A DNA stretch of 64,000 bases from NCBI RefSeq assembly GCF_013403565.1, contig NZ_CP058627.1, forward strand, positions 868,001 through 932,000, written 5' to 3'. The notes below the pieces were generated by a model. The model did no database searches. It saw nothing but the letters and a program-made list of their open reading frames with translations, and was not told where the DNA came from. This document shows positions 47,516-50,029 of this stretch, in pieces. How positions within the stretch are numbered: the stretch's first letter is position 1; each line of letters begins with the position of its first letter. The DNA is from Chitinibacter bivalviorum (GTDB lineage Bacteria > Pseudomonadota > Gammaproteobacteria > Burkholderiales > Chitinibacteraceae). The position numbers were made by a program, and so were the translations under genes.

Positions 47516-47981
47516 AAGTAGGAAAACCAATCACATAAAAAAGATCATTCTAACCGAAGCGTTAGAGCCTTGAAACAGCGTTGACTAACACTTTTCACGT
47601 TTTTAGTACCTTTAAGGCTGAAAATCAGGCCTAGGTAGCCCTAAATGTAAAGTTATGTTTCAAATTATTAAGAAGCTGACGAGTGGCTTGTAAAACTTGA
47701 GCCATCTCAAGATTATGGCGATCCACTTTGTGACATTCTCACTCCATTAAGGAAAAGTTTGTTGTAGGGGCGTTCGATCTTTCCTTAAGTTCAATTGTTT
47801 TCTGTCGCGCACATGTCGTAACGCAAACGTTGCTTAATGTTGCAATGACAGTTAATAATCGTACTACCTTTTGGATTTTCTCAGATAGCAATGGGAATTT
47901 CTTGGGATGGAGTCGTAAATAGTGTCAGCTTTAGCTGATCAAATAAATCTTAGGGTCGTTGTACTTCTAAAGGTGAATAAG
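47516..47981. promoter_or_regulatory. dapA / nagE divergent upstream region
   Basis: These 466 bases hold no convincing gene and separate divergent dapA and nagE. Visible elements are a CTTGAG-CCAT-CTCAAG hairpin at 47696-47711, a 9-bp inverted repeat TTAAGGAAA (47747-47755) / TTTCCTTAA (47780-47788) with 33 bases between centres, and an ACGCAAACGTTGC segment at 47821-47833 that resembles a LacI-family half-palindrome with one base missing. AAAGGTGAATAAG directly before ATG 47982 is the nagE ribosome binding site. Promoter elements are not clear by eye. Confidence 0.5.
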
Positions 47982-49475
47982 ATGAATATTCTGGGTTATC
48001 TACAAAAAATCGGCCGTGCGCTGATGGTGCCGGTGGCTACGCTACCAGCTGCCGCAATTATGATGGGTATTGGTTACTGGATTGATCCAAATGGCTGGGG
48101 TGCTGATAGTGCAACCGCAGCGTTTTTGATTAAGTCTGGTGCAGCCATTATCGATCACATGGCAATTTTGTTTGCTGTGGGTGTGGCTTATGGTATGTCT
48201 AAAGACAAGGACGGCGCTGCGGCGTTGGCAGGTTTGGTTGGTTATCTGGTATTGACTACATTGTTGTCACCAGGTGCTGTGGCTCAAATTCAATCCATCG
48301 ACATCAAAGCGGTTCCTGCTGCCTTTGGTAAAATCGAAAACCAATTCGTTGGTATTTTGGTGGGCGTGATCGCTGCTGAACTCTACAACCGCTTCAGTGG
48401 TGTTGAGTTGCACAAAGCCTTGGCGTTCTTCAGTGGCCGTCGTCTGGTGCCTATCATCACCTCGTTTGTGATGATCATTGTGGCATTTGTGCTGATGGCT
48501 ATTTGGCCTGTGATTTTCAACGGCTTGGTACACTTCGGTGAAAGCATCAAAGATATGGGCGCTGCAGGTGCTGGTATCTATGCCTTCTTCAACCGTCTGC
48601 TGATTCCAGTTGGTTTGCACCACGCACTGAATTCAGTGTTCTGGTTCAACGTTGCCGGCATTAACGACATCCCTAACTTCTTGGGTGGCGCTAAATCATT
48701 GGCTGAAGGTACTGCTGTATTGGGTAAAACTGGTATGTATCAAGCTGGTTTCTTCCCAATCATGATGTTCGGTTTGCCAGGTGCTGCTTTGGCAATTTAC
48801 CACACTGCAAAACCTGCTAACAAAGCGCGTGTAGCTTCAATTATGTTTGCTGCTGCTTTGACTTCATTCTTCACTGGTGTAACAGAACCACTTGAATTCT
48901 CATTCATGTTTGTTGCGCCATTGTTGTATGTATTCCATGCGTTCCTGACTGGTGTTTCTGTGTACATTGCTGCAACTATGCAATGGATTTCAGGTTTCGG
49001 CTTTAGTGCTGGCCTGGTGGATATGGTCTTGTCTTCTCGCAATCCACTTGCGAAAGATTGGTTCATGCTGATCTTGCAAGGCTTTGTATTCTTCGCTGTG
49101 TACTACTTCGGTTTCCGTGCATTCATTACTGCATTGAACCTGAAAACACCAGGTCGTGAAGATGACGTAATCGAATCGATTGCTACTCCAGAAGTAACTG
49201 CTGCTGCAACAGGTAGCACTGCTGAATTGGCGATGGCCTATGCAACTGTGGTTGGTGGTGCGGCTAACGTAACTAATGTTGATGCGTGCATTACACGTTT
49301 GCGTTTGTCAGTCGTTGATGCTGATTTGGTAAACGAAGCGGCTGCCAAAAGCTTGGGTGCGAGCGGTGTAATTAAACTGAACAAACAAAGCGTTCAAATC
49401 ATCGTTGGCCCTAAAGCTGAGCTGATTGCTGATTCGTTGCGTGCTGTTCTGGCTGGTCAAGCTTCAAAAAAGTAA
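47982..49475 (+). CDS. nagE: PTS N-acetylglucosamine transporter EIICB component
   Basis: Imports and phosphorylates GlcNAc, the product of chitin breakdown. The 497-residue protein has a ~10-segment EIIC channel (NILGYLQKIGRALMVPVATL start, GVTEPLEFSFMF) and an EIIB domain with phospho-Cys436 in VDACITRLRLSV. Glucose-family EIICB proteins are similar; the GlcNAc call rests on the NagE-like N-terminus and EIIC pattern. ATG 47982 has a good upstream AAAGG. It ends on A AAA AAG TAA, a possible -1 slippery site, and the EIIA frame follows 24 bases later. Confidence 0.9.
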   Translation: MNILGYLQKIGRALMVPVATLPAAAIMMGIGYWIDPNGWGADSATAAFLIKSGAAIIDHMAILFAVGVAYGMSKDKDGAAALAGLVGYLVLTTLLSPGAVAQIQSIDIKAVPAAFGKIENQFVGILVGVIAAELYNRFSGVELHKALAFFSGRRLVPIITSFVMIIVAFVLMAIWPVIFNGLVHFGESIKDMGAAGAGIYAFFNRLLIPVGLHHALNSVFWFNVAGINDIPNFLGGAKSLAEGTAVLGKTGMYQAGFFPIMMFGLPGAALAIYHTAKPANKARVASIMFAAALTSFFTGVTEPLEFSFMFVAPLLYVFHAFLTGVSVYIAATMQWISGFGFSAGLVDMVLSSRNPLAKDWFMLILQGFVFFAVYYFGFRAFITALNLKTPGREDDVIESIATPEVTAAATGSTAELAMAYATVVGGAANVTNVDACITRLRLSVVDADLVNEAAAKSLGASGVIKLNKQSVQIIVGPKAELIADSLRAVLAGQASKK

Positions 49476-49505
49476 TTGAGGCAGCGCCACAGTCTAACGT
49501 GGCGC
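49466..49505 (+). promoter_or_regulatory. Candidate -1 frameshift signal at the end of nagE
   Basis: A AAA AAG (49466-49472) is read in the zero frame as the last two sense codons, followed at once by TAA. After an 11-base spacer, a 7-bp GC-rich hairpin follows (GCGCCAC 49484-49490, loop 8, GTGGCGC 49499-49505). A -1 shift gives VIEAAPQSNVAPKSSNPGE and continues into EIIA without a stop. No clear upstream Shine-Dalgarno stimulator is seen. Confidence 0.5.
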
Positions 49506-49984
49506 CAAAGTCCTCTAACCCCGGCGAGATCGTACTGCTCTCACCATTAACGGGTGAAGTAGTGGCTTTAGAGAATGTGCCAGATGCGGCATTCGCAACT
49601 AAAGCTGTGGGTGATGGTGTGGCCATTTTACCAACGGGTAATTTGGTAGTGGCACCGTGTGATGGGCAATTGGTTAAGATTTTTAATACCAATCACGCTT
49701 TTGCTCTGATCAACGATGCAGGTGTTGAACTGATTGTGCACATTGGTATCGAAACTGTGAAACTCGGCGGGCAAGGATTTACCCGTCTGGCTGAACAAGG
49801 TAGTTTCGTGAAGGCAGGACAACCCGTACTTGAGTTAGATCTTGAATACTTGGGTGCAAATGCCAAATCAATGATTAGCCCAATTGTTCTTACGAATGCG
49901 GATCAATTTGCACCACTGACCGAGCTAGCATCTGGCTCCGTGATTGCAGGGCAAACCGCGCTCTACACGATCAAACAAAAATAA
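49499..49984 (+). CDS. PTS EIIA component, glucose/GlcNAc type
   Basis: A 161-residue EIIA of the Crr type that passes phosphate from HPr to EIIB. It has LLSPLTGEVVAL near the start, GDGVAILP, and the active-site His81 in VELIVHIGIETVKL, with LELDLEYLGANAKSM later. The only usable start is GTG 49499, with no ribosome binding site at a normal distance (GAGG is 17 bases away), and that GTG lies inside the hairpin. The frame is open leftwards into the nagE A-run, so it may be translated as an EIICBA fusion after a -1 shift (about 667 residues; E. coli NagE has 648). Confidence 0.85.
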   Translation: MAPKSSNPGEIVLLSPLTGEVVALENVPDAAFATKAVGDGVAILPTGNLVVAPCDGQLVKIFNTNHAFALINDAGVELIVHIGIETVKLGGQGFTRLAEQGSFVKAGQPVLELDLEYLGANAKSMISPIVLTNADQFAPLTELASGSVIAGQTALYTIKQK

Positions 49985-49998
49985 TTGATTCTGTTAGC

Positions 49999-50029
49999 AA
50001 AAACGCCACCTTCGGGTGGCGTTTTTTTT
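49999..50029 (+). terminator. Rho-independent terminator after the EIIA gene
   Basis: A perfect 12-bp stem (49999-50010 AAAAACGCCACC, 50015-50026 GGTGGCGTTTTT) with loop TTCG and a following T-run closes the nagE-EIIA unit. Confidence 0.9.

Follow-up and report, generated by a model that had tools for sequence, protein, structure and literature searches.

The N-acetylglucosamine transporter gene nagE of the chitin-associated genera Chitinibacter, Deefgea and Chitinilyticum very probably carries a dnaX-type programmed −1 frameshift, by which a single gene is predicted to yield both an EIICB protein of 497 aa and an EIICBA protein of 667 aa. The gene was examined in a 64,000-nucleotide stretch of the Chitinibacter bivalviorum genome (the window), which is part of a 3.58-Mb contig in a genome of 3.68 Mb; the window features described here are all on its forward (+) strand. 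A sequence-only reading of the window had proposed that one mRNA gives the short and the long form through a −1 shift. As a prediction, that proposal is supported by conservation of the arrangement in 15 of 15 species, by a favoured hairpin downstream of the slip site and by the lack of a conserved start codon for EIIA. The heptamer, the stop codon, the relation between the two frames and the hairpin, together with their conservation, are direct observations.

The nagE 0-frame open reading frame (47982–49475) encodes EIIC and EIIB domains (PF02378 and PF00367) and scores 663.1 bits against TIGR01998 (PTS-II-BC-nag, the N-acetylglucosamine-specific IIBC profile; cut-off 553.2) in profile searches. 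It starts at ATG 47982, preceded by AAGGTGA at 47970–47976; the listed ORF opens earlier, at GTG 47922. The EIIA frame (49472–49984; 170 codons from GTA plus a stop) lies in −1, matches TIGR00830 (PTBA, glucose-type IIA) at 146.9 bits (cut-off 97.5) as well as PF00358, and aligns to positions 499–647 of NF007608. Taken separately, EIICB and EIIA score 432 and 209 bits against the full-length NF007608 profile, both below its cut-off of 1010. The locus has the glucose/GlcNAc-family EIIC, EIIB and EIIA domains of a NagE EIICBA in the order C-B-A, with EIIA in the −1 frame, and it departs from one uninterrupted frame at the stop at 49473. As the sequence-only reading had stated, the −1 frame is open into EIIA: it runs without a stop from 49433 (the preceding TGA is at 49430) until a stop codon whose last base is 49984. 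Over the junction it reads VIEAAPQSNVAPKSSNPGE before entering EIIA. Joined by a −1 shift, the two parts form the predicted 667-aa EIICBA, with a predicted trans-frame junction peptide of KKVIEAAPQSNVAPK and a predicted tryptic trans-frame peptide of VIEAAPQSNVAPK, preceded by KK. An intrinsic-terminator-like site follows EIIA (49999–50026); the terminator scan found none at the EIICB/EIIA junction, and no Rfam family matched 49400–49600 at E≤1, so no known riboswitch is matched there.

The 3′ end of EIICB reads GCT TCA AAA AAG TAA, which places the slippery heptamer A AAA AAG (49466–49472) in X XXY YYZ phase with the 0-frame stop TAA (49473–49475) abutting it, exactly as had been read from the letters alone. 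All 15 split species have NNA AAA AAG, with exactly A6G, followed by TAA (11 species) or TAG (4 species), and have EIIA in −1. The codon before the two lysines differs among them (8 GCA, 3 ACA, 2 CCA, 1 TCA and 1 GGA), and its third base is always A. Given x-Lys-Lys, codon usage in the same genes leads to an expected frequency of NNA AAA AAG of 0.002–0.079 per row; because the rows are related, these values were not multiplied into a probability. AAA accounts for 19% of lysine codons in the split nagE/EIIA genes of Chitinilyticum, and its use in the heptamer there therefore runs counter to preference. Among 21 fused relatives, an in-phase A_AAA_AAG, A_AAA_AAA or A_AAA_AAC between codons 440 and 560 occurs in one (G030). 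A difference of one base in the length of an A-run would be enough to join the frames, though none of the 15 split rows has reverted. The motif AAAAAAG occurs 13 times on the + strand of the window, and the analysis concerns the copy at 49466–49472 only.

Relatives were found by an EIIA search of 6 genomes of the genus and an EIICB search of 43 genomes of the family, 42 of them with a match. The junction was read in 38 rows. Two of them, G001b and G005b, are EIICB paralogues without a fusion and were excluded from later counts; the other 36 are EIICB(A) genes. Of these 36 genes, 15 are split and 21 are in-frame EIICBA, the latter being 18 close NagE plus G007, G016 and G039 at 49–52% identity. 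The split genes represent every species examined of Chitinibacter (g1, 6), Chitinilyticum (g4, 2) and Deefgea (g7, 7). The comparison of relatives that the sequence-only reading had proposed as a check thus found the heptamer, the stop and the −1 EIIA kept, and the hairpin folding, in 15/15 species of three Chitinibacteraceae genera. Plain fusions in relatives, which it had named as counting against a shift, do exist (21/36 genes), all of them outside the three-genus group; inside the group, 0/15 are in frame. Two sets of genomes lay outside the junction reading: G015, G040, G041 and G042, whose nagE is taken to be fused because the open frames are 660–691 aa, and G024–G026, which have no close full-length NagE. 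Beyond the family, the best 80 of 588 loci contained the arrangement only in Chitinilyticum aquatile and Deefgea rivuli, both of them family members, and no NagE was found outside the family at E≤1e-180 among 399 genomes of the order.

On the EIICB tree, the split rows cluster together as a single group (support 100/99). Genera are intermixed on that tree and separate on the EIIA tree, which suggests that the EIICB part was exchanged between genera as an apparent mosaic with the slip site retained (47982–49472; L013-L019, L021-L025, L032, L040, L044). Given the relatedness of the rows and the apparent exchange of the EIICB part, the 15 species amount to fewer than 15 independent tests. The EIICB of the window is 87–88% identical to that of four Deefgea and 80–82% identical to that of its own genus. 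In Chitinibacter, the first eight −1-frame codons have 2, 2 and 6 variable columns at codon positions 1, 2 and 3, respectively, which favours that frame; the same count is uninformative in Deefgea (2, 1, 2) and Chitinilyticum (2, 1, 1).

A spacer of 5 nt (49473–49477) separates the heptamer from a two-part stem-loop (49478–49515), identified by folding, synonymous-shuffle tests and Chitinibacter pair counts. The inner stem of 7 bp pairs GCGCCAC (49484–49490) with GTGGCGC (49499–49505), and the outer GAGGC arm pairs 49478–49481 with 49512–49515 and 49482 with 49510, leaving one bulge on the 3′ side. The 7-bp stem-loop first seen 11 bases beyond the heptamer is therefore real as an inner stem, but the outer stem opens the structure 5 nt after the heptamer, and the view that the spacer is longer than usual does not hold once this stem is counted: 5 nt fits the 5–8 nt range given in the text of PMC4066793. 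Folding predicts a hairpin downstream of the heptamer in 15/15 split species, a putative stimulatory structure of the kind and, in the window, at the distance (~5–8 nt) expected of dnaX-type sites.

The stability of this hairpin exceeds what the encoded peptide needs in all but two species (G010 and G019). On their own, the 95 nt folded from the window are only moderately unusual (z −1.89; 12/200 dinucleotide shuffles equally good). When the peptide of each species was recoded synonymously 1000 times, 12/15 species had ≤37 recodings as stable as the native sequence, with G010 (555), G011 (70) and G019 (249) having more. Synonymous recoding of 63-nt windows gave a mean z of −2.80 at the junction, with 12/15 below −2, compared with −0.32 for 420 other windows of the split genes (23 below −2) and +0.68 for 84 linker windows of the 21 fused relatives (0 below −2). 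Mann-Whitney tests of the junction against same-gene windows and fused linkers gave p values of ~2e-8 and ~3e-9, respectively, for rows that are not independent. The synonymous-shuffle test was non-significant in G010 (z 0.15 and −0.2) and G019 (−0.68 and −0.5), and its signal was weak in G011 (z −1.6).

Base changes in the hairpin appear mostly to preserve pairing, as judged by covariation tests of the Chitinibacter and Deefgea rows. Across the 6 Chitinibacter rows, 94.9% of 78 cells are paired (slid controls ≤48.7%), and two pairs are altered on both sides. Column shuffles of these rows reached the observed number of paired cells and the observed covariation score in 1/500 cases each; they reached the number of pairs changed on both sides in 177/500 and of pair types in 500/500, with no excess over chance in either. 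Deefgea (7 rows, 6 distinct) has 100% of 83 cells paired, with 8/14 pairs varying and slid controls ≤55.4%. Because 209/500 column shuffles scored as high, all measures being unremarkable, only the sliding control is informative for Deefgea, and this control flatters the structures because they were drawn from these very sequences. In the window's own row, two outer consensus pairs are broken and one shifted pair takes their place in its fold.

An upstream Shine-Dalgarno (SD)-like stimulator is present in E. coli dnaX and is not known to be a general requirement of −1 programmed frameshifting. The sequence-only reading had seen no such element, and indeed none is conserved: complementarity ranges from −2.2 to −6.5 kcal/mol in 14/15 species and is strong (−14.1) only in G010. 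This genome, of Chitinilyticum aquatile (L032), is the only one of the 15 in which a strongly SD-like element, GGGGGTGAT, precedes the heptamer by 5 nt; its tRNA-Lys CUU genes number two, and its hairpin does not outdo its own recodings. In this single case, GGGGGTGAT may act as a replacement stimulator.

Slippage on A AAA AAG has been linked to a sole tRNA-Lys, as in E. coli, in the text of PMC5009743. We searched for tRNA-Lys by pattern and similarity, which is not a full tRNA census. By ARAGORN on the tRNA-Lys clusters, 10/15 genomes, comprising six Chitinibacter and four Deefgea, showed tRNA-Lys UUU only (G000-G005, G018, G020, G021 and G022, the last with an incomplete locus), and five have tRNA-Lys CUU in addition (G010, G011, G017, G019 and G023). 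When the CUU gene served as a similarity query, CUU-like top matches among those listed came only from the same five genomes; 13 of the other matching loci, on inspection, contained tRNA-Lys UUU, Met or Asn, or nothing. The CUU tRNA would be expected to lessen slippage on AAG in those five.

It is improbable that EIICB simply terminates and that EIIA is made as a separate protein by re-initiation or internal initiation near the stop, although EIIA does start at the EIICB stop, stand-alone EIIA proteins are listed in databases and translational coupling is named as a cause of many conserved frame transitions (PMC3711429). Coupling needs no phased slippery heptamer with its first A kept across five different codons. 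Nor do the species share the conserved start and ribosome binding site expected of a coupled second gene: at least one ATG, GTG or TTG precedes the domain in 13/15, but there is no conserved position, G017 and G022 have no such codon, and the codon after GTA varies (ATT, ACT, GTT, ACA, AGT, GCG, ATG or ACG). In the window, the sole candidate is GTG 49499–49501, where database protein P0001 starts; it is buried in the hairpin and has no SD complementarity, in agreement with the sequence-only description of an EIIA with no ATG, a single GTG inside the hairpin and no well-placed ribosome binding site. A rare-type ATT also occurs in the −1 frame, at 49475. Four species (G001, G002, G003 and G019) have an internal in-frame GTG with a moderate SD energy of −5.0 to −6.4, against −5.6 to −8.5 for the start of nagE itself, and SD energies are weak at the other candidate starts. 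Three Deefgea (G018, G020 and G021; L016, L015 and L017) have TAATG at the nagE stop, its in-frame ATG being the second −1 codon and lacking SD complementarity; database protein P0018 (Deefgea piscis, 173 aa) starts at that ATG. Because this ATG overlaps the stop, both a frameshift and re-initiation would be conceivable in these three. A clear EIIA start in relatives, which had been set down as evidence against a shift, is thus not conserved and is missing altogether in 2/15 species, with the overlapping ATG of the three Deefgea standing as the exception.

We consider it very unlikely that RNA polymerase slips on the A-run, so that some mRNAs carry one extra A and the frames are fused. Slippage of this type is described for Thermus dnaX (PMC5009743, PMC3711429) and an A-run is present at the junction, but it consists of six A's then G in 15/15 species, whereas transcriptional slippage is quoted for n>7 (PMC3711429), and polymerase slippage leaves the kept phase of the heptamer and the favoured stem just downstream unexplained. 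Hardly credible at all is a sequencing error, a decayed gene or a phase-variable A-run (A6/A7): one added A would simply fuse the two frames, but the number of A's, which the sequence-only reading had singled out for checking, is six in the assemblies of all 15 species, with no A5 or A7 and with five genomes in a single contig, the EIIA of the other 14 species is 71–87% identical to that of the window, the downstream hairpin is favoured, and assembly error, pseudogene and phase variation are rejected because 15/15 species in three genera keep the arrangement.

In the programmed frameshift that we favour, part of the ribosomes would decode AAA AAG and halt at the adjacent UAA or UAG, releasing a membrane-bound EIICB (497 aa). 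Others, delayed by the hairpin that starts 5 nt downstream in the window, would let both lysine tRNAs slip back by a single base and pair anew (A AAA AAG to AAA AAA) and would continue with GUA AUU GAG through the linker and into EIIA, making EIICBA (667 aa). What we infer is that ribosomes slip, how efficiently they do so and what purposes the two products have. Most likely, the EIIA domain of the long form would serve that form itself as well as the EIICB subunits beside it, and EIICB may also be served by the EIIA domain of a separate EIIA-HPr-EI protein of the same genome. More tentatively, and with rather more doubt than conviction, we suggest that frameshift efficiency fixes how many phosphate-carrier domains each transporter has, such that EIICB is accompanied by a minority of EIICBA whose tethered EIIA serves several neighbours, and that the recoding signal tunes how GlcNAc uptake, EIIA-based signalling and the EIIA-HPr-EI protein are coupled to one another.

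A second EIIA, 37–44% identical to that of the window, is encoded in every split genome, and for this reason phosphorylation of the short EIICB in trans is plausible. That an EIICB can work with an EIIA supplied in trans is established: in E. coli, Crr is the common EIIA of PtsG and TreB, according to the text of PMC6872149. The second EIIA alone does not explain the split, because fused genomes also encode a similar protein. In the window genome, it reads as EIIA-HPr-EI, beside HPr and a second EIICB. Its frame is 848–873 aa in 14/15 split genomes; in G004 (L008, G004:C1:2041234-2041695), it reaches just 460 aa, roughly half of that, and is possibly an interrupted EIIA-HPr-EI-type frame. Also encoded in the second PTS locus are an EIIB-like protein of 115 aa whose N-terminus looks membrane-like (L133:8326-8673) and, at the end of the EIICB there (L133:8822-10597), a further EIIB-like domain; both EIIB-like domains seem to lack the active-site cysteine, with TRVRV where CITRLR is expected.

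E. coli dnaX (tau/gamma), as described in the text of PMC3711429 and PMC5009743, uses A AAA AAG and a downstream hairpin to make two products from one gene, and nagE shares the heptamer, the hairpin and, as predicted, the two products. The shift yields the shorter product in dnaX, whereas in nagE it would yield the longer product with an added domain; dnaX also has the upstream SD-like stimulator that nagE lacks, G010 perhaps excepted. The dnaX of the window genome has no in-phase A AAA AAG. E. coli NagE is a single-chain EIICBA (PMC6872149), and this protein and the in-frame Chitinibacteraceae NagE have the same domains in the same order as the split genes. Unlike in those proteins, a stop codon here separates EIICB from EIIA, which is in −1, and EIICB alone is therefore also expected. 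The EIICB-only NagE relatives of Vibrionaceae and Aeromonas end after EIIB, like the predicted short product, and among the matches listed they have no EIIA match within 2.5 kb behind them and no terminal A AAA AAG. In IS3-family elements and phage lambda G-T, as far as the sources describe them, a −1 shift appends a C-terminal domain, as proposed for nagE; those are mobile-element and phage genes, whereas nagE is a chromosomal sugar transporter. To our knowledge, few conserved chromosomal −1 frameshifts are known in bacteria outside mobile elements. No published report of a nagE frameshift appeared among the matches listed, by title and abstract opening, and the word ‘phosphotransferase’ is absent from the main text searched of PMC3711429, PMC5009743 and PMC4066793.

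If correct, this would be a −1 frameshift in a sugar phosphotransferase transporter for which in-frame relatives provide a natural control. It would allow a direct test of what a cell gains from having EIIA in tethered as well as untethered form, and of how the action of A AAA AAG compares between genomes that have tRNA-Lys CUU and genomes that lack it. Databases would also misdescribe the transporter by listing a stand-alone EIIA, and such entries may often start at codons that are not used. One database entry (P0029) is a 152-aa stand-alone EIIA from Chitiniphilus purpureus, the nagE of which (G013, L037) is one intact frame, and is probably an annotation oddity.
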